A DNA stretch of 64,000 bases. Source: Thiohalophilus sp. (GTDB taxonomy: Bacteria; Pseudomonadota; Gammaproteobacteria; UBA6429; Thiohalophilaceae). Position numbers and translations under genes: made by a program. Below, piece by piece: positions 1 to 24,051 of this stretch. The notes under the pieces were generated by a model. That model was not told where the DNA came from, searched no databases, and was given only the letters and a program-made list of their open reading frames with translations. The stretch covers positions 2,418,001-2,482,000 of the forward strand of contig NZ_JAXHLN010000003.1 of the NCBI RefSeq assembly GCF_034522235.1. Direction: 5' to 3'. The first letter of the stretch is position 1; each line of letters starts with the position of its first letter.

Positions 1-867
1 ATCATCGATGAAAGTATTGATAACCAGGCCTTATTTATTCAACATCAGACAAATGCCACCCGTTATGGCGAACTGACCGCCAGTGCACGCGTCGATGATC
101 ACAGCGATGCCGGCACGAATGAAACCTGGAGCCTGGGCTGGAGTAAAAAGGTCGGCAATCTGCGTTATCTGGCCTCTTACGGCACGGCTTTTAAAGCGCC
201 TTCGATCAATGATCTCTACTGGCCCAACAGTACCAGTACCTTCCTGGGCACCACCTATATCAGCGAAGGCAATCCGGACCTCGAACCGGAAGAGAGCGAC
301 ACGCTGGAACTGGGGTTACGCCACCAGCTCACTGCCAACAGTCGGTATGAGGTTTCCATCTACCAGACCAACCTCGACAACCTGATCGACTGGCAAACCA
401 CCCAGACCGGCGCCGACGAATTCACAACCACGCCCAGCAACATAGAAAACGCGACGATTCGTGGTCTGGAATTGATTGCTGCCACGCGGCTGTCGAACTG
501 GGAACTGTCCGGCTCGTTCACCCTGCTGTCGGCCAAAAACGATGCCACGGGGGTACAACTGGATAACCGGCCCAGGGAAAAAATGAAGCTTCAGGCGCTG
601 TGGAGCGAAGATGATAAAAAACTGACCATGGAGTTGCTTGGCGCGGGAACGCGCAAGGACCGGGATGGCAGTGTCGAGCTGGATGGCTATCACATCTTCA
701 ATCTCAACTACCAGTGGGATTATGCCAAACAGGCCACCGGCCGGATTCGTTTCGAGAATCTGTTTGACGAGGAGTATGTGCTCTCCAGCAGTTACGGTGG
801 AGACTACAACACTATCGGACGCAGCATGTTTATCGACTTTATCTACTATTTCGATAACCGGAAATAG
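1..867 (+). CDS. btuB: TonB-dependent vitamin B12 receptor BtuB, C-terminal part (5' end outside window)
   Basis: Reading frame 1 is open from the first base to the stop at 865-867, giving the last 288 residues of an outer-membrane beta-barrel. It contains the TonB-dependent receptor block SYGTAFKAPSINDLY, then EGNPDLEPEESDTLELG, then a final domain with alternating aromatic strands and GRIRFENLFDEEY near the end. These are the usual C-terminal landmarks of the BtuB/FhuA/CirA class. The specificity for corrinoids is inferred from context: eight cobalamin-related genes follow at very short spacing (tonB starts 3 bases after the stop). Such receptors move cobalamin into the periplasm using TonB energy. 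The plug domain, TonB box and any upstream riboswitch lie outside the window. A cobinamide or other corrinoid ligand is equally possible. Confidence 0.85.
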   Translation: MIDESIDNQALFIQHQTNATRYGELTASARVDDHSDAGTNETWSLGWSKKVGNLRYLASYGTAFKAPSINDLYWPNSTSTFLGTTYISEGNPDLEPEESDTLELGLRHQLTANSRYEVSIYQTNLDNLIDWQTTQTGADEFTTTPSNIENATIRGLELIAATRLSNWELSGSFTLLSAKNDATGVQLDNRPREKMKLQALWSEDDKKLTMELLGAGTRKDRDGSVELDGYHIFNLNYQWDYAKQATGRIRFENLFDEEYVLSSSYGGDYNTIGRSMFIDFIYYFDNRK

Positions 868-870
868 GCC

Positions 871-1572
871 ATGGTGGAGCGCTGGCAACCACAGTCACGG
901 CAACGCCTTGTCTTGCTGCTGCCACTCTCGCTGGCGCTCCACCTGCCCCTGCTCGCCTATTTTACCGCGCCGGTGATCCTGCCCGTCGCCGACTCGGCGC
1001 CGGGCATGTCTGTACGGATCGCGGCAAGCGCCACACACAACCGGACCGCGGACGACTCCGAGGCAAAAACCGTCGCCAGGCAAAAAATGCCATCTGAAAC
1101 AGAACCAGAACCGGTAAATCACAAGCCAGAACCAACACCTGAGCAACAGGACAAGGATTCTCAGAAAAAGGAACAGCAACGCCAATCCGAAACGATTAAG
1201 ACACCCGATCAAAAACAGAACAGGCAGATAAAAAAGACCGAGACCTTACACGCAGAACCAACACCGGCAGAACCGACCACCGACAGGGCACTGGTACAGC
1301 AGCGTTTGCAACAGGAAATGCCCAATCATTTCTATTATCCGCGCCTGGCGCGCCGCCAGGGCTACCAGGGCACGGTCACCCTGGGAATCGAACTGCATCG
1401 GCAAGGGTATATCGCCGAGATTCAGATCCTGAAAAGTTCCGGCTACCGGATCCTCGATCTGGCCGCCAGAGACGCGGCTAGTCGCATGGCGGTCGGTTGG
1501 GCGAACCAACTGGTGCATGAGCCCAGCGTCAAAATAAAATTACCCATCCAATACATCCTCACGGAGGGCTGA
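871..1572 (+). CDS. TonB-family energy transducer dedicated to the corrinoid receptor
   Basis: The 233-residue protein has the full TonB plan. A single N-terminal membrane anchor (about residues 12-35, LVLLLPLSLALHLPLLAYF) is followed by a charged Pro/Glu/Lys/Gln-rich periplasmic spacer (about 60-145). The C-terminal TonB domain (about 150-233) carries YPRLARRQGYQGTVTLGIEL and ILKSSGYRILDLAA. The family links the ExbB-ExbD proton motor to the TonB box of outer-membrane receptors. It lies between btuB and the adenosyltransferase gene with gaps of 3 and 2 bases, so it is probably cotranscribed and serves this BtuB. The ExbB-like and DUF2149 proteins further down the operon are candidate motor partners, though general ExbB/ExbD encoded elsewhere could also serve. 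Confidence 0.9.
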   Translation: MVERWQPQSRQRLVLLLPLSLALHLPLLAYFTAPVILPVADSAPGMSVRIAASATHNRTADDSEAKTVARQKMPSETEPEPVNHKPEPTPEQQDKDSQKKEQQRQSETIKTPDQKQNRQIKKTETLHAEPTPAEPTTDRALVQQRLQQEMPNHFYYPRLARRQGYQGTVTLGIELHRQGYIAEIQILKSSGYRILDLAARDAASRMAVGWANQLVHEPSVKIKLPIQYILTEG

Positions 1573-1574
1573 AC

Positions 1575-2126
1575 ATGGGACACCGCTTATCGAAAATTTA
1601 CACCCGCACCGGCGATCAGGGCGAAACCGGCCTGGGCGACGGCAGTCGGGTCAGCAAGACTCACCCGCGCGTGGAAACCTTCGGCACGGTGGATGAACTC
1701 AACAGCCTGATCGGCATGATCCTGGCGCATGAGCTGCCGCAGGCCGTGCGTGACTGCCTGGTGGCGATTCAGCACGATCTGTTCGATCTCGGCGGTGAGC
1801 TGAGCGTGCCCGGCTACGAAGCCGTCGATGCAAGTTATGCAGAGCGTCTGGAAACCGAGCTGGACAAATTCAACGACACCTTGCCGGCCCTCAAGGAGTT
1901 CATTCTTCCCGCCGGGGGCATCGCTACTTCCACCTGCCATCTGGCCCGCGCGGTCTGCCGCCGCGCTGAACGCGACGCTGTGGCCCTGGCCGCCAGTGAA
2001 GCAATCAACCCGGCGGGACTCATCTACCTGAACCGGCTTTCCGATCTGCTGTTTGTCGTCGCCCGGGTGCTGGCGCGGTTTGAAAACGGCGAGGAAGTCC
2101 TGTGGCAACCGGGGAAGAACCGATAA
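1575..2126 (+). CDS. pduO: PduO-type cob(I)alamin adenosyltransferase
   Basis: The 183-residue protein begins with the family ATP-binding motif TRTGDQGETGLGDGSRV (about residues 10-26), followed by DELNSLIG. It ends with the conserved helices carrying RRAERDAV and LNRLSDLLFVVAR. PduO-type enzymes transfer the adenosyl group of ATP to cob(I)alamin to make coenzyme B12 in the cytoplasm. The length is normal for a single-domain member. It starts 2 bases after the tonB stop. A second, unrelated adenosyltransferase (CobO type) is encoded about 6 kb downstream in the same operon, so the two may act on different corrinoids (imported versus incomplete). Confidence 0.93.
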   Translation: MGHRLSKIYTRTGDQGETGLGDGSRVSKTHPRVETFGTVDELNSLIGMILAHELPQAVRDCLVAIQHDLFDLGGELSVPGYEAVDASYAERLETELDKFNDTLPALKEFILPAGGIATSTCHLARAVCRRAERDAVALAASEAINPAGLIYLNRLSDLLFVVARVLARFENGEEVLWQPGKNR

Positions 2127-2189: not shown

Positions 2190-5100
2190 ATGAATGCCTA
2201 TATAATAAGAATCCTTCAGGCGCTGCTGCTTTGCGCCGGGCTGTTCGCCTCCGGCACGGCAAGCAGCGCCACGCTGTTTGGTATTGTCTCGGAGCGCTCC
2301 GCCCAGGACCTGGTCGCCGGCGCCAGACAATTCGCTGAAAGCCACCCCGGACACACGCTCAAGCTGCGCACGCCCTCGCAGATCGCCGCTTATTCGGACA
2401 AGCAGCTTGTGGAACAACTGCAAAAGGCCGACGCCATCCTGATCGCCGCGATCTTTTCCGAGCCGGTTCCCCGCCTGCAGCGGCTGCTTGACGAAACCGC
2501 GCTGGCGAAAGATATCCCACTGTTCATCACCCACAGCGACCGACGACTGATTCGCCTCTCCCGTCTTGGTGGCAAGCGCGTACTGCAAGACCTCGATGAC
2601 AAGCAACTGAATGCGATCAACGAGAACCCGGCGCACGACGAAGCGTACCGGGCGCATCTGGCAAACCTGATCGACGCCTACCCGGCGCAACAACGCTGGC
2701 TGGAATTGCGCGCCTACTGGCAAAACCGCGGCAGCGACAATGTGGCCGGGTTGATCGCCAGTCTTTTACAAAAGACCGACCCCACAATCAGCGTACCGCC
2801 ACTGAACCCCCGGGCCGCCGTACGTTATTACAATGACGAGCGAATGACGTCAGCGGATAAACTCGAGCTTGATCCCGACAAACCGCTGATCGCCATTCTC
2901 GACTACCACACCGGCGATCGGGCCGGGGATATCGACTTGCTGGAGATGTTGTGCGAGCGGCTTGAACAACGACGTTTTCAGTGCCTGGGCATCCTCGCCC
3001 GCTGGGGCCAGGCCAGTGTTCAGGCACTGCGGCAATTGTCACAGGGGATCCCCGGCGGCAAACCGGTTGCCATCATCAACTTGCAGGATTTCGCGGTCGG
3101 CGGCGGGGAACATCGCCGCGAGGCGACCCGTTTGCTGGAACAGATCGATGTCCCGGTATTAAAAGGCATCCGCCTGGCCGAGCGCACGGCGGATCAGTGG
3201 CAACTCTCCGAAGACGGCGTTCCCTGGAATGACGTCCATTACAAGGTCGCCATGCCGGAGATCCAGGGCAGCAGCCAGCCGCTGGTGCTGGCCACCCGCC
3301 GCGAACCCTTTATCGATCCGCTGACCGGGCTGGAGATTGCGCCGCTCGAACCGGCATCCCGTCAGGTGGATCGGATCGTTGCGCGCCTGTCCAACTGGCA
3401 CCGGCTGCAACGCAAACCCAACAGTGAGAAGCGCATTGCCGTTATTTACTACAATCATCCGCCGGGACGGCACAACGTCGGCGCCGACAACCTCGATGTG
3501 CCCGCCTCGCTCTGGGATCTGTTGCAGCATTTAAAAAAGGCCGGTTACCGCACCGGGCCGCTCCCCAAAGACCCCGAAGCCCTGCTGGAGCGGATCCAGG
3601 ATCAGGGGCTCAACCTGCCCGAGGATCATGCTGCCCTGACCCGGATGGCAGGCAAGACAAGCCGGCTCAGCCTGGCGGACTATCAAGACTGGTTCGACAC
3701 CCTGCCCGAGGCGGTCCGCGATGAGCTCAGCCACGGACCGCTGGCCTATCTCACCGCCATGTTGAAACAGGCGCGCGAGCGCCAGCAACCGCGGATCGGC
3801 AAGGCGCTACTTGAACGGACGATGAACGATATCCGTCATCTGCTGGAGAGTGTCGACCACCCGGCCCGGCAACGGGCGCTGGATCTGCTCGAGCAGTTGC
3901 AGACGGCCCACCGGGCGTCGCTGGCCGGCGAGGATCGAAACAACGCGATCCGGCGCCTGAACCGGGCGCTGCGAAACACGGGGATCGAGGGACTGCGCGG
4001 CTGGGGCGAGCCGCCGGGCAAGGTGATGGTACACGACAACCGGTTTGTGCTGCCCGGCATCCGTTTCGGCAATGTCTTTATCGGCCCGCAACCGCCGCGC
4101 GGCTGGGAGGTGAACGAGGAGCTGCTACACGCCAACCTCGCCTTTCCGCCGCTGCATCAATATCTGGCCTTCTATCGCTGGCTGCAAAATGAATTCAAGG
4201 CCGATGCCCTGGTGCATCTGGGTCGCCACTCGACGTACGAGTTCCTGCCGCGACGCCGGGTCGGGCTGACCGGCGAGGATTATCCGACCCTGATGGCCGG
4301 CGACCTCCCCGGGGTATATCCCTATATCGTCGACGGCGTCGGCGAAGGCATCCAGGCCAAGCGACGCGGCCTGGCGGTGATCGTCGATCACCTGACGCCG
4401 CCGCTGAAGACCACGCCGCTGTACGATGATCTGTTGCAGCTGCGCCAGCTGGTCGAAAGCTTCGAAGCCTCGCGTGATAACAGCCCGACTCGCACGCAGG
4501 CCGTGGAAAAAATTCGCGCGCTGATCGACGAACTCAACCTGCGCGAGGAACTCGAGGCGGTGATGCAAAAAGAGCTGGCCGTGCGCCAGATCGATTTCGA
4601 ACAGGTCGACGACGATCTGCTGGTCCACGAAGTGGGGCATTATCTGACCGAGATGCAGGAACGCTTCATGCCGCTGGGACTGCATGTGTTCGGTCGCGAC
4701 TGGGAAAGCGAGGCCGTCGACACCATGCTCGCTTCCATGATCGAACAATCCAGGATCGAGCAATCCGGGATGGATCAATCCGGGACGGATCGATCCGGGG
4801 ATAGCCGCCCCGGCGATGATACCCGCGCGGCGCTGGAAAACTCACCGGCGCAGGAGATCCGCGCCCTGCTCGCCGGGCTGGAAGGCCGCTTCGTCAAACC
4901 CGGCAAGGGTAACGATCCGATCCGCACCCCCGAGGCGTTACCGACCGGCCGAAATTTTCACGCACTGGACGGCAGCGTACTACCCACCCGGATCGGGTAC
5001 GAACTGGGCGTGCAACTGGCCCGCGAGGCCCGTCACAACAACCGCGACGAGGCACCGGGCAGTGAGGCGCTGGTGTTGTGGGCCTCCGATACGGTGCGCG

Positions 5101-6590
5101 ACGAAGGGGCGATGGTCGCCTTCGGGATGGACATGCTGGGGATCAAGCCAATCTGGAACAGTCGCGGCATCTTCAAGGGCATCGAACGGCTCGAACTGAA
5201 AGCGGGTCGCCAGCGTCGTGATATGGTGTTCACTACCTCGGGCCTGTTTCGCGATCTCTACGCCAACCTGCTGGTCTGGCTGGACAAGGCAGTGCTGCTG
5301 GCCCTGAATGGCGCCAGCGAAACCATCCGCCGCGAGCATCCGCAACTGGCCGAGGCCCTGCAGCATGCGCTGGCCCCGCTGGGCGACGAGCGCGATCCCG
5401 GCAACGAATCCCTGGCCCAAAATCACGTCGCCGCCAACTGGGTCCAGCAGGCACAGGAACTTATTAATAAGAATAAAAACGCGGCTCTGGCCGGCCGACT
5501 GGCGACATTGCGCCTGTTCGGCGATGCGCCGGGATCCTACGGTGCCGGCGTAAACCGGCTCGCCGAGCGTTCCGGCGCCTGGTCGGATCGGCGGCAACTG
5601 AGCCAGACCTATATCCATCGCATGGGGCATGCCTACGGCGCCGATCTTGACGGCCTGCCCGCCCATGACAGCTTCAGGGCCTCATTGGGCAAGGTTCGGC
5701 ACACCTATCTCGGCCGCGCCAGCAACCTGTACGGGCTGATGGATAACAACGATGCCTTTGATTATCTGGGCGGCCTGAGCATGGCGGTGGAACACACCGC
5801 CGGCACGGCACCGGATAATCACGTCATCCAGCACGCCGATCCAAACAATGCCGGTATCCAGCCCCTGGACAGCGCCCTGTTGCAGGAACTGCGCGGCCGG
5901 TTTCTCAATCCGGCCTGGTTGAAAGCTCTGATGAAACATGACTATGCCGGCGCACGCACCATGGGCAGTGAATTTATGGAATACCTGTGGGGCTGGCAAA
6001 TCACCAACCCGGCGATCATCAAGTCCTGGGTCTGGGATGAGGTCAAAGCGGTCTACATCGACGATCGTCACCAGCTTGGCCTGGACGAGTTTCTGGAACA
6101 GGGCCGGAACGCGCATGTGAAAACCAACATGCTGGCGATCATGCTGGTCGCCGCGCACAAGGAATTCTGGGAGGTCGACGCGCAGACGCGACAGGAACTG
6201 GCCCGGGCCTTTGCGCAACTGGTCAACCGCCACGGCCTGCCCGGCAGCGGGCATACCCGGGCGGACCATCCCATGCTGCAGGGGATCAAGCCCCTGCTGG
6301 ATGAACCGACCCGCCGGACGTTCGAAAACGTGCTGGCGGCGGCCGCCGGCCCCCAACAGCCGGCTAAACCGGACACCGTGACCACCACCATCAGTGAAAT
6401 CAAACCTGAATCCAGCACGACGCAAACCGAATCGCCTGCCAGTGAGAGCGAAGCGAAACCGTCCGAACCCCATGAACCGGGCAAGGAAAAGTGGCTGATC
6501 CTGGCCATTGCCCTGCTGGTGATAACCGGCGGTGCCCTGTATGAACGTTATTTGTCGGGGCGCCGGCTGACAACAAACCGAGGTCGATGA
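2190..6590 (+). CDS. Membrane-anchored, exported CobN/HmuS-like metal chelatase
   Basis: The 1466-residue protein belongs to the CobN/magnesium-chelatase H superfamily: the core has ALVHLGRHSTYEFLPRR (about residue 670), GDLPGVYPYIVDG, VDHLTPPLKTTPLYD, and near the end DNNDAFDYLGGLSMAVE. Unlike cytoplasmic CobN (around 1275 residues) it starts with a signal peptide (about 1-28, ILQALLLCAGLFASGTASSA). It ends with a Pro/Ser/Glu-rich tail and one membrane helix (WLILAIALLVITGGALY, about 1439-1455) followed by Arg/Lys, so the body should be periplasmic. The canonical G-T-H-G-x-L-E active-site block reads G-R-H-S-T-Y-E, keeping His and Glu. No ChlI/ChlD-type ATPase subunits (CobS/CobT chelatase) are nearby. 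Its 3' end overlaps an ExbB-like gene by 4 bases. The closest known arrangement is HmuS of Bacteroidetes haem loci. Metal insertion or removal on a corrinoid is inference. Confidence 0.8.
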   Translation: MNAYIIRILQALLLCAGLFASGTASSATLFGIVSERSAQDLVAGARQFAESHPGHTLKLRTPSQIAAYSDKQLVEQLQKADAILIAAIFSEPVPRLQRLLDETALAKDIPLFITHSDRRLIRLSRLGGKRVLQDLDDKQLNAINENPAHDEAYRAHLANLIDAYPAQQRWLELRAYWQNRGSDNVAGLIASLLQKTDPTISVPPLNPRAAVRYYNDERMTSADKLELDPDKPLIAILDYHTGDRAGDIDLLEMLCERLEQRRFQCLGILARWGQASVQALRQLSQGIPGGKPVAIINLQDFAVGGGEHRREATRLLEQIDVPVLKGIRLAERTADQWQLSEDGVPWNDVHYKVAMPEIQGSSQPLVLATRREPFIDPLTGLEIAPLEPASRQVDRIVARLSNWHRLQRKPNSEKRIAVIYYNHPPGRHNVGADNLDVPASLWDLLQHLKKAGYRTGPLPKDPEALLERIQDQGLNLPEDHAALTRMAGKTSRLSLADYQDWFDTLPEAVRDELSHGPLAYLTAMLKQARERQQPRIGKALLERTMNDIRHLLESVDHPARQRALDLLEQLQTAHRASLAGEDRNNAIRRLNRALRNTGIEGLRGWGEPPGKVMVHDNRFVLPGIRFGNVFIGPQPPRGWEVNEELLHANLAFPPLHQYLAFYRWLQNEFKADALVHLGRHSTYEFLPRRRVGLTGEDYPTLMAGDLPGVYPYIVDGVGEGIQAKRRGLAVIVDHLTPPLKTTPLYDDLLQLRQLVESFEASRDNSPTRTQAVEKIRALIDELNLREELEAVMQKELAVRQIDFEQVDDDLLVHEVGHYLTEMQERFMPLGLHVFGRDWESEAVDTMLASMIEQSRIEQSGMDQSGTDRSGDSRPGDDTRAALENSPAQEIRALLAGLEGRFVKPGKGNDPIRTPEALPTGRNFHALDGSVLPTRIGYELGVQLAREARHNNRDEAPGSEALVLWASDTVRDEGAMVAFGMDMLGIKPIWNSRGIFKGIERLELKAGRQRRDMVFTTSGLFRDLYANLLVWLDKAVLLALNGASETIRREHPQLAEALQHALAPLGDERDPGNESLAQNHVAANWVQQAQELINKNKNAALAGRLATLRLFGDAPGSYGAGVNRLAERSGAWSDRRQLSQTYIHRMGHAYGADLDGLPAHDSFRASLGKVRHTYLGRASNLYGLMDNNDAFDYLGGLSMAVEHTAGTAPDNHVIQHADPNNAGIQPLDSALLQELRGRFLNPAWLKALMKHDYAGARTMGSEFMEYLWGWQITNPAIIKSWVWDEVKAVYIDDRHQLGLDEFLEQGRNAHVKTNMLAIMLVAAHKEFWEVDAQTRQELARAFAQLVNRHGLPGSGHTRADHPMLQGIKPLLDEPTRRTFENVLAAAAGPQQPAKPDTVTTTISEIKPESSTTQTESPASESEAKPSEPHEPGKEKWLILAIALLVITGGALYERYLSGRRLTTNRGR
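4739..4798 (+). repeat. Four in-frame 15-bp tandem repeats inside the CobN-like gene
   Basis: Four units of 15 bp resembling GATCGAGCAATCCGG lie end to end and encode a hydrophilic Ile-Glu-Gln-Ser-Gly / Met-Asp-Gln-Ser-Gly / Thr-Asp-Arg-Ser-Gly linker at about residues 850-869. A fifth, more diverged unit follows. Being a multiple of three, copy-number change would keep the frame. Confidence 0.8.
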
Positions 6591-7051
6591 GTATGTTTAC
6601 CCAACAATCCATTCAGATGATGCATTATGCCGTGGACTGGTTGTTACAACCGGTCATCTATTGCCTGCTGTTCGTGGTACTGGCCGCCCTGTGGGAGAGC
6701 GGTATCGCCCTGAGCGAACGTTTCGGCGGGTTGAATAAACTGGTGCAACAGAACAATCCTGATCGCAGCGCCGCGCAGGGACGCCGACGGATCGAACGGG
6801 CCGATCTGCTGGCCCGTATCGGCCCCATGCTCGGCCTGATGGGCACGCTGATCCCCCTGGGCCCGGGACTGGCGGCGCTCGGCCAGGGGGATCTGCAGAC
6901 CCTGGCCCGCGCCGTCACCGTCGCCTTCGATACGACCGTCCTGGGTTTGCTGGTCGGGATCGCCGGCTTTATCCTCGGTCGCCTGCGCCGCCGCTGGTAC
7001 GACCAGCTTCTCGACACCCTGGAAACCCGCACACAGGAGAGCACCGCATGA
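6587..7051 (+). CDS. MotA/TolQ/ExbB-type proton-channel protein
   Basis: The 154-residue protein has an N-terminal membrane helix (about 17-36, LLQPVIYCLLFVVLAALWES), then the family core GPMLGLMGTLIPLGPGLAAL (about 79-98) and a third helix around FDTTVLGLLVGIAGFILG. This matches the ExbB/TolQ/MotA motif in which the last two helices line the proton path. It is shorter than ExbB (about 240). ATG 6587 overlaps the stop of the CobN-like gene (translational coupling); an ATG at 6593 is an alternative start. With the DUF2149 protein downstream it may form an ExbB/ExbD-like motor that drives either the local TonB or the exported chelatase. Which of the two cannot be decided from sequence. Confidence 0.82.
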   Translation: MSMFTQQSIQMMHYAVDWLLQPVIYCLLFVVLAALWESGIALSERFGGLNKLVQQNNPDRSAAQGRRRIERADLLARIGPMLGLMGTLIPLGPGLAALGQGDLQTLARAVTVAFDTTVLGLLVGIAGFILGRLRRRWYDQLLDTLETRTQESTA

Positions 7052-7719
7052 TAAGCGCCATCGGCATCGGTCCCGGCGACCCCAACTACATGACCCGCCT
7101 TGGCGAAGCCCGTCTGCAAAAAGCCGAACTCGTGGTCGGCTTTGAGACGGTCCTGAAACTGGCCGGCGAACTGATTCCCGCCAGCGCCGAGCGCGTGGTC
7201 CTGACCTACCGCAACCAGGAAGATCAACTGGCGCACGTGGCCGCCCGGCATGCCGCCGGCGCGCGTTGCGCGGTGCTGTTCATGGGCGATTTCCTGTTTT
7301 CGGGCTATCAGATGCTGGAACGGCTGGAGCGGGCCTGCGGCGAGCGGGTGGAACGCATTCCCGGGATCAGCGCCGCGCAACTGGTCGCCGCCGCCGGCGA
7401 TGTCTGCTTTGACGAGACCACTTTCATCACCTTCCATCGACGCGGCGATCTGCAGCCTTTCCAGCAACGGCTGGTAAACACCCTGCAGGAAGGCTGGAAC
7501 GCGATCGTGATTCCCCGCCCGTGGGATTTCATGCCGCACGAGATCAGCCGTTATCTGATCGAGCAGGGCGTCGATGAGCGGCATCCTCTGGAAGTATGGG
7601 AAAATCTCAGCGGCGAGGAGGATCACTGGTCGGGGACACTGGCCAGCTGTCCCGACTCGTTCAGTGACATGAGTATCCTGTTAATCCGCACGCTGACCCC
7701 CATCCCCAGCGCGGTATAG
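7048..7719 (+). CDS. CbiE-like precorrin C5-methyltransferase family protein
   Basis: The 223-residue protein has the SAM-dependent tetrapyrrole methylase fold: N-terminal AIGIGPGDPNYMTRLGEARL, FMGDFLFSGYQML where family members usually have G-D-P-x-F/Y, and RIPGISAAQLVAAA. It resembles CbiE (cobalt-precorrin-7 C5-methyltransferase, the N-terminal half of CobL). The start overlaps the ExbB-like stop by 4 bases. No other corrin-ring methyltransferase (CbiT, CbiF, CbiH, CbiL) is in the window, so this is a lone member between two motor genes. It could complete a pathway encoded elsewhere or have been recruited for another role. The change from Pro to Phe in the GDP-x-F motif is notable. Confidence 0.75.
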   Translation: MISAIGIGPGDPNYMTRLGEARLQKAELVVGFETVLKLAGELIPASAERVVLTYRNQEDQLAHVAARHAAGARCAVLFMGDFLFSGYQMLERLERACGERVERIPGISAAQLVAAAGDVCFDETTFITFHRRGDLQPFQQRLVNTLQEGWNAIVIPRPWDFMPHEISRYLIEQGVDERHPLEVWENLSGEEDHWSGTLASCPDSFSDMSILLIRTLTPIPSAV

Positions 7720-7732
7720 GGAGGCGACCACT

Positions 7733-8047
7733 ATGCACGGAGAGTCCCGACATCGTCTCGACAGCAACCGCTTCGATCCGCCGGATCAGGAGCCGCTGGG
7801 CCCGCTGGCCAATCTGGTGGATATTATGCTGGTCTTCGCCTGCGGGCTGATCGCCGCGCTGGCCGCCAGCCAGGGCGGCCTGGCCGATTATACCCGGGCC
7901 GGCGGTCAAACCATTGAACAGGGCAGAGAGATCCCGGAGATGCCGAGCGTCGCCGGTGAAGCCGGCGCCGGCTATGAGTCCGTCGGCAAAGTCTACCGCG
8001 ATCGCAAAACCGGCAAGCTGATTTTGATTGGAGAAGAACATGAGTAA
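7733..8047 (+). CDS. DUF2149 protein, ExbD-like single-pass membrane protein
   Basis: The 104-residue protein has a short cytoplasmic N-terminus, one membrane helix (about 26-47, ANLVDIMLVFACGLIAALAA) and a small periplasmic tail. The helix begins with L-V-D30-I-M-L-V-F, closely resembling the I-D-V-M-L-V-L of ExbD/TolR, whose Asp carries the proton. I recognise the family as DUF2149, which co-occurs with CobN-like and ExbB-like genes. A strong ribosome site AGGGAGG lies 8 bases before the ATG. The stop overlaps the start of cobO by 8 bases. The role as the ExbD partner of the ExbB-like protein is inferred from motif and order. Confidence 0.75.
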   Translation: MHGESRHRLDSNRFDPPDQEPLGPLANLVDIMLVFACGLIAALAASQGGLADYTRAGGQTIEQGREIPEMPSVAGEAGAGYESVGKVYRDRKTGKLILIGEEHE

Positions 8048-8648
8048 TGAAGAAACCGCAGAACAACGTTATCAACGCCGCATGGAACGCAAAAAAGCCG
8101 TGGTGGACGAGAAAGTCGCCCGGGCCGATCAGGACAAGGGCCTGATCCTGGTACATACCGGCAACGGCAAGGGCAAAAGCAGCGCGGGCTTCGGCATGGT
8201 GGCGCGCGCCCTGGGCCACAACATGCAGGTTGGTGTCGTGCAATTTATCAAGGGCAGCTTTTCCACCGGCGAGGAGACCTTTTTCCGTCGTTTTCCCGAG
8301 GTGCAGTATCATGTCATGGGAGAAGGCTTCACCTGGGAGACCCGGGATCGGGAACGGGATACCGAGATGGCCTATCACGCCTGGCAAGAAGCGCAGGCCA
8401 TGCTGCTGGATCCGGCTATCAACCTGGTGCTGCTGGATGAGATCAACATCGCCCTCAAATACAAATATATCCCGATGGATGAAGTGATTGACGCGCTGGC
8501 CAACAAACCGGCCATGCAACACGTCATCCTCACCGGCCGCGGCGCGAAACCGGAACTGATCGAGGTCGCCGATACGGTGACGGAAATGAAAGAGATCAAG
8601 CACGCCTTCAAGGCCGGGATCCGCGCCCAGCAGGGCGTCGAGCTGTAA
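8040..8648 (+). CDS. cobO: CobO/BtuR-type corrinoid adenosyltransferase
   Basis: The 202-residue protein has the P-loop GNGKGKSSAGFGMVARALG (about residues 37-55), QFIKGSFSTGEETFF, LLDEINIALKYKYI and the C-terminal VILTGRGAKPELIEVADTVTEM. These define cob(I)yrinic acid a,c-diamide adenosyltransferases. The reaction adds the 5'-deoxyadenosyl group to the reduced corrinoid in the cytoplasm. ATG 8040 is preferred over TTG 8028 because GGAG at 8030-8033 sits 6 bases before it. The gene overlaps the DUF2149 stop by 8 bases and the bluB start by 1 base, indicating translational coupling. Confidence 0.95.
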   Translation: MSNEETAEQRYQRRMERKKAVVDEKVARADQDKGLILVHTGNGKGKSSAGFGMVARALGHNMQVGVVQFIKGSFSTGEETFFRRFPEVQYHVMGEGFTWETRDRERDTEMAYHAWQEAQAMLLDPAINLVLLDEINIALKYKYIPMDEVIDALANKPAMQHVILTGRGAKPELIEVADTVTEMKEIKHAFKAGIRAQQGVEL

Positions 8649-9298
8649 TGGACCGATCGCATCGCTATTCACAAGCGGAGATCGACGCGGTTTATCGCGT
8701 GATAGAAGAACGCCGCGACATGCGCCATTTTCTGCCGAATCCGATCGACCCGACCCTGCTGCAACGATTGCTGCAGGCTGCCCATCACGCCCCCAGTGTC
8801 GGTTATATGCAGCCCTGGCGGTTTGTTCGAATAACCGACAACAACCTGCGCCAAAACATTCATCAACTGGTCGATCAGGAACGAGTGACCACCGCCGAGG
8901 CGCTGGGCAAGCGGCAAGAGGAGTTCATGCGGCTCAAGGTCGAGGGTATTCTCGATTGCGGCGAATTGCTGGTGGTGTCGCTGATGGACCGGCGCGAGAA
9001 GCATGTATTTGGCCGGCGCACCATGCCCCACATGGATCTCGCCTCGGCTACCTGCGCCATTCAGAACCTGTGGCTGGCCGCCCGGGCCGAAGGGCTGGGC
9101 CTGGGCTGGGTCTCGCTGTTCGATCCCGCCGAACTGGCCCAATTGATACAGGCCCCGGAAGGAGCCGAGCCTGTCGCTATACTTTGCCTGGGCCATGTAA
9201 AAGCATTCTATGACAAGCCCATGCTGGAACAGGAAAACTGGGCGCAACGCGCCAGCCTGGATGATCTCGTTTTCGAAAACCACTGGTCAGCAGATTAA
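8648..9298 (+). CDS. bluB: 5,6-dimethylbenzimidazole synthase BluB
   Basis: The 216-residue flavin nitroreductase-fold protein carries the BluB landmarks RRDMRHFLPNPIDPTLL (about residues 20-36), AAHHAPSVGYMQPWRFV (about 44-60) and NLWLAARAEGLGLGWVSLF (about 139-157). The enzyme cleaves reduced FMN with oxygen to produce DMB, the lower ligand of cobalamin, which implies at least microaerobic synthesis. The ATG shares its A with the TAA stop of cobO. It is the last gene of the first operon; the convergent cobB ends 112 bases away. Its product is the substrate of CobT, encoded at 24300-25364. Confidence 0.95.
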   Translation: MDRSHRYSQAEIDAVYRVIEERRDMRHFLPNPIDPTLLQRLLQAAHHAPSVGYMQPWRFVRITDNNLRQNIHQLVDQERVTTAEALGKRQEEFMRLKVEGILDCGELLVVSLMDRREKHVFGRRTMPHMDLASATCAIQNLWLAARAEGLGLGWVSLFDPAELAQLIQAPEGAEPVAILCLGHVKAFYDKPMLEQENWAQRASLDDLVFENHWSAD

Positions 9299-9409: not shown

Positions 9410-10699
9410 TTAAAGCGACGGTGCAAACAGTTTCGCAACGGCGTGAGGGTTAGAGGGAAAATAGAAGTGAAAATAGGAGGCGACCAGATTGCCTTCCCGA
9501 TAGACCGGCTCACCGCGGCGCCCGGCACGTTGCCCCTCACTCCAGGCAACGGGAACAAGTGAACTTTCCACCTGTGAATAATGGAACGTATGTCCACGTA
9601 ATCTGCCTTCGGGTAATTCGACATGGTGAAGGCCCAGGTTGGCCAGTTTCTTCTGCATGCTGGCCTGCCCCGGCAACAAGCCCAGCATATCCGCCTGTTC
9701 ACCTTTGACATCGGTCAGCGACTCCAGCAGATACAGCATCCCGCCGCATTCGGCGACGACGGCCTTGCCACTGGCATGAAATGCCAGGATGGCGTTTTTC
9801 ATGGCGCTATTGGATGCCAGTTGTTCAAGATGTAACTCGGGGTATCCCCCGGGCAGATACAGAGCATCGGCGTCGGGAACGGCTTCGTCATCAAGCGGCG
9901 AGAAAAATTCAAGTTGGGCACCGAGAGTTTGTAAAAGCTCGAGATTGGCGCGATATAAAAAGGCAAAAGCGGCATCCTTTGCCACAGCAATATGCCGCCC
10001 TTTCAATCGCGGTTCAAGGGAGTGCGGTGTCGGAGCGGTGATTTCGACCGCAGGCGGTAACGGAATATTCATCTCGCCAAGCGCCGCAGCGGCCCGGGCT
10101 ATGCGTGACTCCAGATCGCCCACCTCGGTGGCCTGCACCAGACCAAGATGACGTTCCGGCAATGCAAGTTCGGTATCCCGTGCCAGCCAGCCGTAGGCGG
10201 TCATCCCGGCCGGCAGACTCTCGGCGAGCATCTGGTAATGGCGCTCACCCGCCACCCGATTGGCAAAGACCCCGGCAAACGGCAGATCGTCGCGATACGT
10301 TGACAGGCCATGCGCGATGGCGCCAAACGTCTGGGCCATGGCGCTGCCATCGATGATCGCAAGTACCGGAATATCGAACAAAGTCGCCAGATCGGCGCTG
10401 GACGGTTCGCCATCGAACAACCCCATCACCCCTTCGATCAGGATCAGATCGGCTTCCTTTGCCGCATCGTGCAGAAGTTGACGACAGTGTTGCTCCCCGC
10501 CCATCCACAAATCGAGTTGATAGACCGGTGCCCCGGAAGCGTATTCCAGGATCATGGGATCAAGAAAATCCGGTCCACACTTGAACACCCGGACCTGGTT
10601 CCCCCGATCCCGGTAATGTCTCGCCAGTGCGGCTGTCACCGTGGTCTTGCCCTGTCCGGAAGCCGGTGCCGCAATGAAAAGTGCGGGACAAAAAACCAT
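9410..10699 (-). CDS. cobB: Cobyrinic/hydrogenobyrinic acid a,c-diamide synthase (CobB/CbiA)
   Basis: The 429-residue protein has an N-terminal dethiobiotin-synthetase-like ATPase domain (AAPASGQGKTTVTAALARHY, about residues 9-28; FKCGPDFLDPMILEYASG) and a C-terminal type-1 glutamine amidotransferase domain (LYLPGGYPELHLE; nucleophile Cys in VVAECGGMLYLLESL; His in LRGHTFHYS). It amidates the a and c carboxylates of cobyrinate or hydrogenobyrinate using glutamine and ATP. AGGAAA upstream of the ATG is the ribosome site. It is convergent with the first operon, monocistronic between a cobalamin riboswitch and a terminator, and so is probably repressed by B12. Confidence 0.94.
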   Translation of the reverse strand: MVFCPALFIAAPASGQGKTTVTAALARHYRDRGNQVRVFKCGPDFLDPMILEYASGAPVYQLDLWMGGEQHCRQLLHDAAKEADLILIEGVMGLFDGEPSSADLATLFDIPVLAIIDGSAMAQTFGAIAHGLSTYRDDLPFAGVFANRVAGERHYQMLAESLPAGMTAYGWLARDTELALPERHLGLVQATEVGDLESRIARAAAALGEMNIPLPPAVEITAPTPHSLEPRLKGRHIAVAKDAAFAFLYRANLELLQTLGAQLEFFSPLDDEAVPDADALYLPGGYPELHLEQLASNSAMKNAILAFHASGKAVVAECGGMLYLLESLTDVKGEQADMLGLLPGQASMQKKLANLGLHHVELPEGRLRGHTFHYSQVESSLVPVAWSEGQRAGRRGEPVYREGNLVASYFHFYFPSNPHAVAKLFAPSL

Positions 10700-17888: not shown

Positions 17889-18791
17889 CTAGTTCTTTGC
17901 GGGGGAAGAAGTATCGTGGTCTGTGCGGACCTGCTCCAATTGCCGGCACAGGGTCTCGGCCCCCTGCAGGATGCGCACGGTGTGGCGTTGCAGATGATCG
18001 GGCTGGATCATAAAGAGGTGATCCTGCGCCACCGCCGGAATCGATTTCCAGCGCTGCCAGCGTTCGATCCATTCGGCATGTTGCTCGCCCATACCGCCGA
18101 TCACGATAGCCTGCGGCGCTCTTGCGATCACCGCTTCTTCTGAAATTTGCGGCGTCAGACTGACCGTCTCGCCGAAGACATTATGCCCGCCGCACAAACG
18201 GATCACATCGCCGATCAGGTGTTCATCATTAACCGTCATCAACGGCCGATCCCATATCTGGTAAAAGACTTTGACCGGTTGCCGGTCGCTGAAACGCTGC
18301 AAATATTCGAGGCGATTCTTGAACTCGACGATCACCGTCTCGGCTTGTTGTTGATTACCGGTCAATACCGCCAGGCGCCGCAGGGTATCGGGGATATCGG
18401 TCAGGCGGCGGGGTTCATTGATGAACAACGGCAGATCGAAACGCCGGAGCTTTTCCAGGTCGGCCGGATTATTGCCGCTTTGCCAGCCGACCACCAGATC
18501 CGGCTCAAGGGTTACAATGCGTTCCAGATCCAGCGCGTTATACCCGCCGACTCGTGGAATCGATTCGGCGGCCTCGGGATAATCACTGTAATTGACCGCT
18601 CCCACCACGCGCTCGCCGGCGCCGATGCTGAACAGCAACTCGGTAATGTGCGGCGCCAGGCTGACGATGCGCCGGGCCGGCTGATCCAGCTGGACCTTCT
18701 GCCCGGTATAATCAGTGACGCTGAAGGTCCCGGCGCTCGCCAGCCCGGCGAACAGACAGAGCCAGCCTGTTGCGATCCAACGATATTTCAT
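17889..18791 (-). CDS. btuF: Periplasmic cobalamin-binding protein BtuF
   Basis: The 300-residue protein has a signal peptide (about 1-20, ending LASAG) and the class-III solute-binding plan of BtuF: RIVSLAPHITELLFSIGAGE (about 40-59), VVGAVNYSDYPEAAESIPRV, a DLVVGWQSGN segment and a long connecting helix. It would deliver cobalamin or cobinamide to a BtuCD importer, but no BtuC or BtuD gene is in the window. The start overlaps the stop of cobC by 4 bases. The family also binds haem and siderophores, but the overlap with cobalamin genes supports BtuF. Confidence 0.85.
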   Translation of the reverse strand: MKYRWIATGWLCLFAGLASAGTFSVTDYTGQKVQLDQPARRIVSLAPHITELLFSIGAGERVVGAVNYSDYPEAAESIPRVGGYNALDLERIVTLEPDLVVGWQSGNNPADLEKLRRFDLPLFINEPRRLTDIPDTLRRLAVLTGNQQQAETVIVEFKNRLEYLQRFSDRQPVKVFYQIWDRPLMTVNDEHLIGDVIRLCGGHNVFGETVSLTPQISEEAVIARAPQAIVIGGMGEQHAEWIERWQRWKSIPAVAQDHLFMIQPDHLQRHTVRILQGAETLCRQLEQVRTDHDTSSPAKN

Positions 18792-19831
18792 GCCTGCACC
18801 GCCTGGTTGCGTTTCGATGGATGAATCTGTGCCAGCGCGATCCCGAGTCGCTGCCAGTCGGCCTCCTCGCCCGGCAGCCCCAGGCGCAAACCGGGACCGC
18901 CGGCGGCCGGGTCAAAATAGCGGCTCCAGATCCCTGCATGGGCCAGCTGCTCGTGCAGCGCGCGTGCCGTCGATGTCGGCAACCAGGCAAACAGCGGCGA
19001 ATGACCGCCGACCGGCAAACCGTATTCACTGAGCAAGTGCACCAGTCGTTCGCTGGCCCGGGGCAGTTGCTCGCGCATCCGCTGCTGCCAGGCGTCATCC
19101 GCCAGCGCCGCCTGCATGATGAAGCGGGCCGGGCCGGCTACGGCCCAGGGGCCAAGCCGCTCGGACAGTGCCGCGAGCAGCCCGGTCTCGCCCAGCACGA
19201 AGCCCCCGCGCAGCCCGGGCAGGCCGAAGAACTTGCCGATGGAGCGCAACACGATCAGCCCCGGCCGAGCGCTGTGGGCGGCCAGACTCAGTTCGGGCGT
19301 CGCATCGATAAAGGCCTCGTCCACCACCAGCCAGCCCCCGCGGGCCTGCAGGCGCCGGTGCCAGTCGAGCAGTTGTGCGGGCGCAAAGCGGTGGCCGGTG
19401 GGGTTGTTGGGATTGACCACCACCAGCACATCCAGCGTATCGAGTTGCGAATCGAGGCTGTCCTCGAGGGTATCTCCGTGGGTATTCAGGCGCAGTGGCA
19501 CCAGCGTATGGCCACCCTGCTGCCAGCGCCAGGCGTGTTCGTTGTAGCTCGGGGAGAGCACCCCGACGCGGCCGGGGGCGCGCAGGCCCGGCAACAGCTG
19601 GATGGCCTGCTGCGAGCCGGCCACCGGCAGCAGCGCGGGCGCACCGTAATAATCGCGGGCGATGTCGATCAGACCGTCGTCCTGCTGGGGCAGCTGCTGC
19701 CAGACACGCGGCGGCAGCGACGGCACCGGATACGCCCCGGGATTGATCCCGGTCGACAGATCCAGCCACGCGTCCGGTGCCCGCCCGTAACGGCGTGCCG
19801 CTTCCAGCAGATTACCCCCATGTTGTGGCAA
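18788..19831 (-). CDS. cobC: Threonine-phosphate decarboxylase / aminopropanol-forming enzyme CobC (CobD in Salmonella)
   Basis: The 347-residue PLP enzyme of aminotransferase fold I starts HGGNLLEAARRYG and DLSTGINPGAYP, typical of CobC/CobD. It has VVVNPNNPTGHRF (about residues 135-147), WLVVDEAFID (about 168-177), and the PLP lysine in LRSIGKFFGLPGLRGGFVLG (about 194-213). It makes (R)-1-aminopropan-2-ol phosphate from threonine phosphate for attachment to adenosylcobyric acid. It overlaps cbiB by 20 bases and btuF by 4 bases, so cbiB-cobC-btuF form one unit. The following partner step is done by CbiB. Note that the phosphatase at 23434 also bears the name CobC in another nomenclature. Confidence 0.9.
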   Translation of the reverse strand: MPQHGGNLLEAARRYGRAPDAWLDLSTGINPGAYPVPSLPPRVWQQLPQQDDGLIDIARDYYGAPALLPVAGSQQAIQLLPGLRAPGRVGVLSPSYNEHAWRWQQGGHTLVPLRLNTHGDTLEDSLDSQLDTLDVLVVVNPNNPTGHRFAPAQLLDWHRRLQARGGWLVVDEAFIDATPELSLAAHSARPGLIVLRSIGKFFGLPGLRGGFVLGETGLLAALSERLGPWAVAGPARFIMQAALADDAWQQRMREQLPRASERLVHLLSEYGLPVGGHSPLFAWLPTSTARALHEQLAHAGIWSRYFDPAAGGPGLRLGLPGEEADWQRLGIALAQIHPSKRNQAVQA

Positions 19832-20750
19832 ACAGACCTCCTGCGATCGCGATGATCACCAGCCATAAAATCAGCGTGTATTGTACGAGACGCACCGCCC
19901 GGGTGATATCACCCACCCGGGCAGGGGGGCCGGCACCCAGCGGCGGCCGCTCGCGCAGCGCGCCATGATAATTGACCGGGCCCCCCAGCGTCCGGTTCAG
20001 CGCCCCGGCGCCGCTGGCCATCACCACGCCGGGATTGATGCCTTCCCAGTGCGGCGCCTGGGTCCGCCAGCAGCGCAGGGCCTGGCGAGTGTGGCCCAGC
20101 AGGGCATAGCTCAGGGCAGTCAGCCGCGCCGGCAGCCAGTTCAGACCATCGTCCAGACGCGCCGCCAGGGTGCCGAAATCCCGGTAGCGGTCGTTACGAT
20201 AACCCCACATCGCATCCAGGGTATTGGCCAGCCGGAAGAGCACCACCCCCGGCGCGCCGAGCAGCAGGAACCAGAACAGGGTGGCGAATACCGCGTCGTT
20301 GCCGTTCTCCAGCACCGATTCCACCGTGGCGGCGCTGATCTGCGAGGCATCCAGCACCCCGGTATCCCGACTGACCAGCATCGCCACGGCGTGGCGCGCC
20401 CCGTCCAGATCCGCCTGCTCCAGCTTGCGGGCGACCCGCCGCGCATGTTGCGCCAGCGAGCGGCCGCCCAGGGCCAGATAAAGCAACAGCAACTCGAGCA
20501 CGGCCCCGCCCCACAGCGGCAGAACCATCACCAGCCAGGCGGTCAGCCCCACCGGCGGCGCCACCAGCAACAGCCAACCGAGCAGGCCGCGCCAGCGCCG
20601 CCGCGCGGCACTCACCGAAGGTGGCCCGTAAACCCGGGCTTCCAGCCAGAGAACCAGGCGACCAAACCCGGCCAGCGGATGATAACGCCGGGGATCGCCC
20701 AGCCACTGGTCCAGCACCACGGCCGCCAGCACGATCGCGACGCTCAGCAT
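19812..20750 (-). CDS. cbiB: Adenosylcobinamide-phosphate synthase CbiB (CobD)
   Basis: The 312-residue membrane protein begins LSVAIVLAAVVLDQWLGDPR with the family motif G-D-P-x-x-x-H-P. It also has SRDTGVLDASQISAATVESV (about residues 146-165), ENGNDAVFATLFWFLLLGAP and WGYRNDRYRDFGTLAARLDD. It joins aminopropanol phosphate to adenosylcobyric acid at the inner membrane. ATG 20750 is chosen because family members start 10-20 residues before G-D-P; ATG 20777 would add nine residues. No strong ribosome site is visible for either. It is divergent from cobQ, sharing a promoter region of under 80 bases. Confidence 0.92.
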   Translation of the reverse strand: MLSVAIVLAAVVLDQWLGDPRRYHPLAGFGRLVLWLEARVYGPPSVSAARRRWRGLLGWLLLVAPPVGLTAWLVMVLPLWGGAVLELLLLYLALGGRSLAQHARRVARKLEQADLDGARHAVAMLVSRDTGVLDASQISAATVESVLENGNDAVFATLFWFLLLGAPGVVLFRLANTLDAMWGYRNDRYRDFGTLAARLDDGLNWLPARLTALSYALLGHTRQALRCWRTQAPHWEGINPGVVMASGAGALNRTLGGPVNYHGALRERPPLGAGPPARVGDITRAVRLVQYTLILWLVIIAIAGGLFATTWG

Positions 20751-20824
20751 CGGGTTTGTGACCCGGCAGGGGGGCATTCTGTATTAAAATAGCGGATTCG
20801 TTTCACTGGATACCGGATGTTATT

Positions 20825-22672: not shown

Positions 22673-22690
22673 TCAGAACTCAGAACTCAG
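22600..22690. repeat. Thirteen-unit heptanucleotide array entering cobS
   Basis: Thirteen consecutive 7-base units, the last eight identical (AACTCAG, 22635-22690). On the minus strand the unit is CTGAGTT, so TGA recurs every seven bases and falls in each reading frame in turn. The stop codon of cobS (22673-22675) is one of these TGAs and its last codons are made of repeat sequence. Confidence 0.95.
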
Positions 22691-23437: not shown

Positions 23438-24051
23438 TTGAGCTGGCCGCCGTGGAAGATCAGCCGGGGCAGTTGTTGACCCTCGTGGGATTCGATCTCG
23501 ATACGGGTAATCCCGGCCAGGTCCACGCGCAAACGAAACATGCTCGACAACGGCATATTCAGCACATGGCGCAGGATCATTCGAATCATCCCGGCATGCC
23601 CGACCACCAGCAGATGTTCGCCGGCATGTTGTTGCAACAGGTCTTCCCACGCACCGATCACCCGCTGCTCGAACTCGTGCAGGGTCTCGGCGCCGGGTGG
23701 CGTATTGTTAAGCGGATCGGACCAGAAACGAAACAACCGCTGTTGATCCTCGGCCATCAACTCTTCTGCGCTACGCCCTTCCCATTCGCCGAAGCCGATC
23801 TCCATCAGACGCGGTTCCGGCCGCAGCGGCAGGCTATGACGTTCGGCCAGCTCCCGTGCAAAGTCATGGCATCGGCATAAACTGGAAGTCACAATGCGAT
23901 CCCAGGGGCAGTGATCGGCCACCGCTTCGCGCATCTGCCGCCAACCCAGTTCGCTTAACGGATCATCGATCTGCCCGCGATAGCGCTTGCCGCCCACCGG
24001 TTCGCCGTGGCGCAGCAGGTCAACCGTCGTTACTACAGATTTTTCAGCCAT
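23434..24051 (-). CDS. cobC: Alpha-ribazole-5'-phosphate phosphatase CobC (histidine phosphatase family)
   Basis: The 205-residue protein has the phosphohistidine signature LLRHGEPVGGKRYRGQIDDP (about residues 12-31), the family ITSSLCRCHDFARELA-like segment (here VTSSLCRC), FGEWEGRSAEEL and the second catalytic His in LLVVGHAGMIRMIL. It would remove the phosphate of alpha-ribazole phosphate or adenosylcobalamin phosphate in the last steps of cobalamin synthesis. ATG 24051 is used rather than the TTG six bases upstream. The stop overlaps cobS by 4 bases. Without its cob neighbours it could be mistaken for a phosphoglycerate mutase. Confidence 0.88.
   Translation of the reverse strand: MAEKSVVTTVDLLRHGEPVGGKRYRGQIDDPLSELGWRQMREAVADHCPWDRIVTSSLCRCHDFARELAERHSLPLRPEPRLMEIGFGEWEGRSAEELMAEDQQRLFRFWSDPLNNTPPGAETLHEFEQRVIGAWEDLLQQHAGEHLLVVGHAGMIRMILRHVLNMPLSSMFRLRVDLAGITRIEIESHEGQQLPRLIFHGGQLK

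Follow-up and report, generated by a model that had tools for sequence, protein, structure and literature searches.

An exported CobN-like protein with an ExbB-like partner in a Thiohalophilus cobalamin operon: a candidate proton-driven cobalt chelatase of the periplasm

How could a metal chelatase be driven outside the cytoplasm? The question is raised by a 64,000-nucleotide stretch of DNA from Thiohalophilus sp. (contig NZ_JAXHLN010000003.1, positions 2,418,001 to 2,482,000; hereafter the window), in which the gene for a predicted exported and C-terminally anchored CobN-like chelatase (2190..6590, + strand; 1466 amino acids; PF02514, 857.7 bits) overlaps the gene for an ExbB-like stator protein within a cobalamin (B12) operon. 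Class I chelatases depend on AAA+ partners for work, and in the TonB and TolA systems a stator uses a membrane helix to hand the energy of the proton gradient on to a protein in the periplasm. Because there is no ATP outside the cytoplasm, we propose the stator as energy source of the CobN-like protein. Its most likely function, in which we have about even confidence, is the proton-gradient-driven insertion of cobalt into a metal-free corrin in the periplasm.

The operon, the anchored protein and its stator

The two top 19-residue hydropathy windows of the CobN-like protein start at residue 3 (1.82) and residue 1434 (1.63). The first marks a predicted signal peptide (2190..2270, about residues 1-27, with the cleavage site put by eye), the second a predicted membrane helix (6489..6545), which stands behind a low-complexity linker rich in E, P, S and T and is followed by a short basic tail; both calls were made from hydropathy and not with SignalP or DeepTMHMM. 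Among 370 genomes from the class of the window genome, which we took as Gammaproteobacteria and in each of which at most two first-look candidates were scored, 40 gave some CobN-like match and 12, the window genome included, held a near full-length member of the same subfamily. The other 11 members are 50-58% identical to the window protein, and the next match drops to 221 bits. All 12 keep both hydrophobic ends by hydropathy, which supports the export and anchoring that an earlier reading of the letters (hereafter the sequence-only reading) had proposed.

An ATGA overlap joins cobN to the gene of the stator protein, a short ExbB/TolQ/MotA-like form (6587..7051, + strand), and the latter is joined likewise to a gene for a lone CbiE-like tetrapyrrole methylase (7048..7719, + strand; TIGR02467, 103.8 bits, cut-off 92.9); because of these overlaps, translational coupling is suggested for both pairs. 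The stator protein belongs to the ExbB/TolQ/MotA family, as it matches PF01618 above cut-off (38.6 versus 22.9 bits) and is predicted to have an ExbB-like fold. Its AlphaFold2 model has a mean model confidence (pLDDT) of 92.1, and the best Foldseek matches of this model are ExbB and TolQ (probability 0.95-1.00, best E 0.033), with no match at E <= 0.001. In all 12 subfamily genomes exbB and the gene for a DUF2149 protein (in the window 7733..8047, + strand; 34.2 bits, cut-off 27.1) lie downstream of cobN, with cbiE intervening in two, and a canonical ExbD occurs in all 12 as well.

The DUF2149 protein has one predicted membrane helix with Asp30 and a small C-terminal beta part, and its model reaches a mean pLDDT of only 62. 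Asp30 is invariant across the 30 compared proteins, with Glu instead in Runella. A single membrane helix with a near-invariant Asp recalls ExbD, and we use "ExbD-like" as an analogy; DUF2149 was rejected as a proven ExbD homologue, hhalign giving a probability of 3% against five canonical ExbD proteins. The best PDB matches were at E 0.62 for the ExbB-like and E 0.79 for the DUF2149 protein. The sequence-only reading, in which an ExbD-like DUF2149 protein followed the ExbB-like one, was right about the presence of DUF2149 but missed the methylase in between, and the likeness of DUF2149 to ExbD stands as an analogy.

On the + strand the operon reads btuB, tonB, pduO, cobN-like, exbB-like, cbiE-like, DUF2149, cobO, bluB. 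Profile matches bear out the earlier assignment of btuB (3' part at 1..867; whole gene L007:11014-12867), tonB (871..1572; PF03544, 59.1 bits), the PduO-type cob(I)alamin adenosyltransferase gene (1575..2126; TIGR00636, 193.5 bits), the adenosyltransferase gene cobO (8040..8648, open frame from 8028; TIGR00708, 223.1 bits) and bluB (8648..9298; TIGR02476, 269.5 bits) to one operon with the cobN-like gene, and hydropathy and the ATGA overlap do the same for a CobN-like protein with signal peptide and C-terminal helix whose gene overlaps exbB. A cobalamin riboswitch, the sole one in the whole genome, heads the operon 5' of btuB and lies outside the window, 1.1-1.3 kb before its first letter (in window numbering about -1313 to -1101; 116.2 bits). 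Because the operon stands behind this riboswitch, the machine would be made when B12 is short. Riboswitches above cut-off occur at 10 of the 12 subfamily loci. Riboswitch and B12 genes at the locus support the corrinoid context assumed by the sequence-only reading, which had overlooked the riboswitch, the CbiE-like methylase and a convergent cbiA.

Phylogeny, active site and the partner of the stator

We compared 89 CobN/ChlH-type proteins of at least 1000 amino acids with a stop codon inside the locus, after 15 others had been dropped. In a midpoint-rooted FastTree of 78 of them, 13 window-type proteins form one clade with full support. This clade stands apart from the HmuS-like (5), CobN (4), ChlH (7) and archaeal (11) proteins, which form one clade each, and from beta and delta groups, which are loose labels. 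The tree of CobN, ChlH, HmuS and the window protein that the sequence-only reading had suggested thus places the latter in its own clade outside all three. Because stator-linked forms flank the CobN+ChlH branch on both sides in this tree, a single motor switch on that branch would explain the pattern, for a root that midpoint rooting does not establish. An ordinary cytoplasmic CobN whose hydrophobic ends are meaningless is hardly credible to us. The protein does match PF02514 and the CobN profiles, but it misses the CobN equivalog cut-offs (best CobN model 645 versus 1248 bits; TIGR02257 535.3 versus 822.05), differs by hydropathy from the soluble CobN without membrane helices, keeps both ends throughout the subfamily, belongs to a separate, fully supported clade and has no ChlID-type partner that we could find in the 12 genomes.

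The active site can be compared with that of HmuS, the exported class I chelatase of Bacteroidota, in which His-538 and His-1209 oppose each other across the active site and the exchange H538A abolishes turnover (PMC12583661; here, as with all papers cited by PMC number, our statements refer to the part of the text available to us). The His-538 equivalent is kept as His680 (4227..4229, + strand), and Asp1188 (5751..5753, + strand) stands at the His-1209 column, both placed by alignment with residue numbers counted by hand. This column holds Asp in 30 of 30 riboswitch-linked proteins and in all four cytosolic CobN, His in all five HmuS-like proteins (four of them picked by their His/Glu motif before the tree, and only L093 lying in an annotated hmu operon), and three His, three Asn and one Tyr in the ChlH/BchH clade (n=7). 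Archaeal proteins mostly have Asp, with His in L152, Cys in L164 and Gly in L167.

The count of 30 leaves out L137, whose riboswitch match lies downstream of the cobN-like gene (Met at the column), and L131, whose riboswitch match is on the other strand and which gave no CobN-like match. In two rounds 10 and 12 of the 30 riboswitches were found with Rfam and eight by pattern scan alone (L090, L095, L109, L110, L112, L123, L126, L159), some of the 30 several kb upstream of cobN; after mononucleotide shuffling of the same 1.32 Mb, the pattern matched three times. Pattern scan and Rfam checks were used because at least two rows of the riboswitch alignment (L067, L074) look misplaced.

The HmuS motif LSLDHxxEFMGG, which contains His-1209 and Glu-1212, reads LMDNNDAFDYLGG in the window protein, with Asp at both columns. 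Ile and Asp stand at the columns of the HmuS haem site Met-79/His-254, where the alignment is weak, and the tripeptide HGR is absent from the whole protein. A check for a methionine-rich insertion gave at most 6 Met per 120 residues, the control, HmuS of B. finegoldii, having only 10. The window protein shares the ExbB-like and DUF2149 partners and the two hydrophobic ends with HmuS, and the corrin-type active-site Asp together with the superfamily His with CobN. By the features tested it is neither HmuS nor CobN, being most like CobN in chemistry and most like HmuS in placement, and its residues suggest a corrin-type active site. In the stator-linked CobN-like proteins L136, L137 and L139 (Chitinophaga, Alcanivorax and a Moraxellaceae metagenome-assembled genome), the His column holds Phe/Asn and the Asp column Glu/Met.

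Does the stator serve this protein or the TonB of the operon? The presence of tonB and btuB in the same operon, and the description of HmuU and HmuV as ExbB- and ExbD-like proteins that energise HmuR (PMC10100974), favour a reading in which the ExbB-like and DUF2149 proteins energise TonB and BtuB with CobN as a passenger; we think this very improbable. Loci from named genomes were fetched with an alignment of the ExbB-like protein alone, and the comparison was confined to the best 80 of 559. In 77 of these 80 a DUF2149 gene is adjacent, and 63 hold a CobN-like gene (50 of the 52 bacterial loci, 13 of the 28 archaeal ones); many of the 17 loci without one are short contigs, and three are archaeal ones of 20.6 kb. 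Within the same 80, a predicted DUF2162 transporter stands beside the stator in 20 of the 28 archaeal loci, and none of the 28 gave a TonB or receptor match. Because archaea carry the cassette too, the stator would serve CobN rather than TonB. In Trichlorobacter lovleyi the ExbB-DUF2149 pair moreover adjoins a separate canonical exbB-exbD-tonB set, and in genome G138 cobN-exbB-DUF2149 stands under its own riboswitch, separate from btuB-tonB. The archaeal cassette (CobN, DUF2162, ExbB, DUF2149; L141-L170) occurs in Methanothrix, ANME-1 and other Methanosarcinales.

Among the 89 proteins, the C-terminal helix and a nearby stator occur together in 75, neither occurs in 13 and one protein is discordant, so that 88 of 89 agree, with the hydropathy cut for the helix (1.1) set after the values were known and "nearby" meaning matches within the same locus (gap of 2.1-3.0 kb in 5 of the 63 CobN-holding loci). 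The sole discordant protein is L179 of Cupriavidus; L031 and L178, at first apparent exceptions, proved to have the stator. Among the 13 with neither trait, archaeal L164 has an ExbB-like but no DUF2149 match in its locus. All 75 stator-linked CobN proteins thus carry the helix. Because helix and stator co-occur, and because a Marinobacter copy has lost helix, exbB and DUF2149 at once, we conclude that the stator goes with CobN and not with TonB; the link between motor and CobN drawn by the sequence-only reading is supported by this agreement and by the adjacency in 12 of 12 genomes.

Among copies from named organisms, the one closest to the window protein (50% identity) lies on a Marinobacter plasmid, which is why we took the class of the window genome as Gammaproteobacteria. 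On the plasmid of Marinobacter sp. M3C, cobN (L090:8004-12206) stands between cbiA and cobO without C-terminal helix, exbB or DUF2149, and may be a decaying copy. A plasmid search with DUF2149 as query gave no match.

Direction of the reaction and proposed mechanism

Four subfamily genomes (G104, G209, G077, G350) have 6-8 tetrapyrrole methylases and the other eight 2-4. The clusters of these four hold cobG, cobH, cobI, cobJ and cobL, with cobK and cobM found by BLAST; cobG (precorrin-3B synthase) scores 269 bits in G104, above cut-off, and its copies in the other three are 54-64% identical. This gene set marks the aerobic, late-cobalt route, on which the metal has to go into a ring made without it; G104 and G350 additionally carry cbiD, a gene likewise found in the aerobic cluster of Azospirillum oryzae. 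In these 4 of 12 genomes, the window genome not among them, the exported CobN is encoded in the cobG-type cluster, and no other class I chelatase was reported with two first-look candidates scored per genome. Aerobic ring-making in these genomes points to metallation rather than demetallation. The sequence-only reading had left both directions open and had the protein handle imported corrinoids before they reach BtuF; this fits the eight genomes with too few methylases, whereas in the other four the cell makes the ring itself by the aerobic route.

A ChlID-type partner was not found, the best scores being 37.8 bits in the four aerobic genomes and 47.1 in all 12. Two phototroph-type genomes with ChlH-type proteins gave 462 and 465 bits as a control, G145, whose CobN-like L031 is stator-linked, gave 46.8, and no genome reached the family cut-off of 779 bits. 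Together with the separate clade, this lack of a ChlI/ChlD-type partner (CobS/CobT were not specifically searched) supports the distinctness from ATP-driven chelatases that the sequence-only reading had proposed, and neither check that was meant to refute that reading did so. The four aerobic clusters (35-47.5 kb each) gave no match to CobW, CbtA, HoxN, CbiM or ChlI/VWA, and CobW occurs in all five canonical aerobic clusters compared (11.7-25.3 kb each; chosen from plasmid hits, three of the five supplying the CobW queries). Unless cobalt is in excess, CobNST depends on CobW for its supply of the metal in vivo (PMC7689651). A YadGH-like ATP-binding cassette (ABC-2) exporter (L199:10909-12600) lies upstream of cobG in all four aerobic clusters, its ATPase 70-85% and its permease 79-88% identical to the G104 copies, and was not found in the five canonical ones.

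The window genome (3.06 Mb; one class I chelatase) is a salvager, since its four tetrapyrrole methylases are too few for ring synthesis. Convergent with the operon lies cbiA/cobB for (hydrogeno)cobyrinic acid a,c-diamide synthase (9410..10699, - strand; PRK01077, 458.5 bits), and 9 of the 12 subfamily genomes have, in addition to CbiP, another GATase_3 match that scores as high as CbiA would (102-124 bits). The CobN-like protein was not found in the one same-genus and three same-family genomes of the sample. The same-genus genome (G107) is syntenic with the window (protein identities: pduO 92%, cobO 89%, bluB 78%, H+-pyrophosphatase 97%), and between its pduO and cobO about 0.85 kb with a gene for a 272-amino-acid protein replaces cobN-exbB-cbiE-DUF2149. 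The N-terminus of this protein looks like a signal peptide, and its similarity to the family of periplasmic binding proteins that includes BtuF is weak (22.9 bits, below the cut-off of 27.5). By locus comparison cbiA is absent between bluB and the pyrophosphatase gene; the whole G107 genome gave no cobN match and three methylases, none at CbiE level, whereas exbB, DUF2149 and cbiA were sought at the syntenic places only. At this locus the cobN module and cbiA are thus present or absent jointly; the CbiA enzyme works on the ring before its amidation, in a step adjacent to that of cobalt.

In the mechanism that we infer, the CobN-like body would be exported and held by its C-terminal helix, and linker and helix would engage a dedicated ExbB-like/DUF2149 stator. 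Proton flow through this stator could supply the conformational work that CobS/CobT or ChlI/ChlD give in the cytoplasm, with DUF2149 and ExbB pulling or turning the linker and thereby opening and closing the body. The reaction would be the insertion of cobalt into hydrogenobyrinic acid or its a,c-diamide. Where the aerobic pathway is present, the ring may reach the periplasm via the co-encoded ABC-2 exporter; in salvagers like the window genome, BtuB would take up the ring, which would be metallated and handed over to BtuF-BtuCD, before CbiA, CobO, CbiP, CbiB and CobS finish the corrinoid. Extended to a full periplasmic loop, in which the ring is exported by ABC-2, receives its cobalt outside from the proton-driven chelatase and is re-imported by BtuFCD, the proposal becomes distinctly tentative; cytoplasmic cobalt would then be unneeded and CobW dispensable, and salvagers would metallate the rings of their neighbours.

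Two other activities of the same machine have to be weighed. As a periplasmic de-chelatase it could strip cobalt or another metal from corrinoids or tetrapyrroles in order to harvest the metal, much as HmuS turns haem into protoporphyrin and Fe(II) (PMC12583661), and metal-permease-like neighbours in other clades (DUF2162, a weakly NicO-like protein, CbiM) as well as a plasmid copy of Runella in a nickel-hydrogenase operon would suit this. We nevertheless hold it to be unlikely: freed cobalt would be useless for B12 in the eight genomes with too few methylases, no identified gene in the window operon is a metal permease, and the window protein lacks both the HmuS motif and aligned counterparts of the haem-site residues. 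The Runella slithyformis plasmid region (L091:3902-11936) encodes a TonB receptor, the weakly NicO-like protein, ExbB, DUF2149 and CobN amid the genes of a hyp nickel-hydrogenase operon, a setting suggestive of a variant for nickel.

Alternatively, the CobN-like body could bind corrinoids and hand them over without metal chemistry, as part of a proton-driven handling or transport machine. Class I chelatases have head and neck domains similar to periplasmic binding proteins (PMC12583661), the BtuF-family-like protein of G107 (a sub-cut-off match with a signal-peptide-like start) holds the slot of the module, and the stator is paired with the predicted DUF2162 transporter in those 20 of 28 archaeal loci. 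Such a machine is improbable in our view, as the protein retains the His of chelatases and the Asp of the CobN type, the aerobic clusters would be left without any chelatase found, and the genome already encodes a permease like BtuC and a protein like BtuF. A complex that replaces BtuCD was ruled out, given the BtuC-like FecCD permease upstream of the riboswitch and the BtuF-like gene in the window.

Several observations weigh against periplasmic cobalt insertion. HmuS, the closest characterised relative of the same architecture, removes metal (PMC12583661), and in other clades the machine has a predicted permease as neighbour (DUF2162, NicO-like, HmuT), in keeping with the harvest of metal. 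The machine also occurs in riboswitch-less and archaeal settings; within the subfamily, the riboswitch of G226 is sub-threshold (30.1 bits, cut-off 31.5) and G126 has none at the locus. The binding-protein-like gene in the slot of the module in G107 suits a transport role, the Marinobacter plasmid cobN persists without stator or C-terminal helix, and profile comparison does not bear out homology of DUF2149 with ExbD (3%). A second chelatase is possible in the four aerobic genomes, where two candidates were scored out of 3, 4, 2 and 5; ChlI/ChlD-type partners were not found, with no search aimed at CobS/CobT, and CobW and the exporter were sought in the cluster regions and not in whole genomes. 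A literature search on the salvage of metal-free corrins, a putative nutrient, found nothing.

Known systems, significance and further features

The literature already describes HmuS with an ExbB-like and a DUF2149 partner, as well as a BtuS class distinct from CobN and ChlH (PMC12583661, PMC13227078, PMC6460266, PMC10434189). With HmuS-HmuT-HmuU-HmuV of Bacteroidota the window system shares an exported class I chelatase with two hydrophobic ends, an ExbB-like protein (HmuU), a DUF2149 protein (HmuV) and a TonB-dependent receptor. It differs in the separate clade of its chelatase, in Asp for His-1209 and the missing HGR motif, in a cobalamin riboswitch instead of iron control, in its union with B12 enzymes and in the lack of an HmuT-like gene between cobN and exbB. 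BtuS (Rodionov et al. 2003, as cited in PMC6460266) was predicted to serve metalloporphyrin salvage, unlike our corrin reading, and the available text of that account (PMC6460266) mentions neither the link to aerobic clusters nor the exporter, nor that no ATPase partner was found. BtuS is a CobN-related branch apart from CobN/ChlH; the window clade is separate too, in a tree that does not contain the 2003 BtuS sequence.

Hmu-like operons of Bacteroides likewise have a cobalamin riboswitch in front and have been given a suggested cobalamin role; they belong to a different phylum, and the available part of PMC10100974 proposes neither direction nor motor. Cytosolic CobNST and CobN-ChlID have the corrin-type active-site Asp and would take the same pathway step in cobG clusters, but they are ATP-driven, soluble and CobW-fed, whereas the window type is predicted to be exported, anchored and stator-linked. 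On plasmid pSZ77 of Geobacter (Trichlorobacter) lovleyi, cobN-exbB-exbD-tonB also places CobN near B12 genes, with no CobS/CobT found (PMC3403914); unlike the window protein, this CobN falls in the delta/beta clade and has DUF2162, and its role was left open in the available part of that paper (PMC3403914). A literature search of titles and abstract openings gave no account of an exported, periplasmic or proton-driven cobaltochelatase.

If the proposal is true, the proton gradient would power a metal chelatase, a stator taking the role of the AAA+ ATPases, and the motor of class I chelatases would have been exchanged during evolution. It would name the cobalt-inserting enzyme of aerobic B12 producers without a found ChlID-type ATPase and give a reason for HmuU and HmuV in hmu operons. 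The idea would reach methanogens and other archaea, and would bear on the roles left open for the CobN-like proteins of Geobacter lovleyi and Bacteroides.

Further corrinoid genes lie downstream in the window: those for a BtuF-like periplasmic B12-binding protein (17889..18791, - strand; PRK03379, 183.1 bits, below the cut-off of 234), threonine-phosphate decarboxylase CobD (18788..19831, - strand; TIGR01140, 352 bits), CbiB (19812..20777, - strand; PF03186, 311.2 bits), the cobyric acid synthase CbiP/CobQ (20825..22291, + strand; PRK00784, 686.8 bits) and cobalamin-5-phosphate synthase CobS, distinct from the chelatase subunit of the same name (22673..23650, - strand; PF02654, 177.9 bits). 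A btuC-like gene and an ABC ATPase gene lie farther upstream, beyond the riboswitch; the FecCD permease there matches the BtuC profile at 226.8 bits, below the curated cut-off of 334.

The CbiE-like methylase stands between exbB and DUF2149 although the window genome cannot make the ring. G123 has one in the same place, 73% identical to the window copy; the other 10 subfamily loci have no CbiE there, L050 and L051 giving only weak matches to other sequences. The B12 genes of the window neighbour a membrane H+-pyrophosphatase (11073-13094) and a 1106-amino-acid PAS/GAF/GGDEF/EAL protein (13444-16764). Two Mg-chelatase-domain matches of the window genome (G000:C1:35389-36000 and G000:C3:26735-27346), in proteins of 559 amino acids that we take to be ComM-like, have the same score and frame length and lie near contig ends, which is perhaps an assembly overlap.

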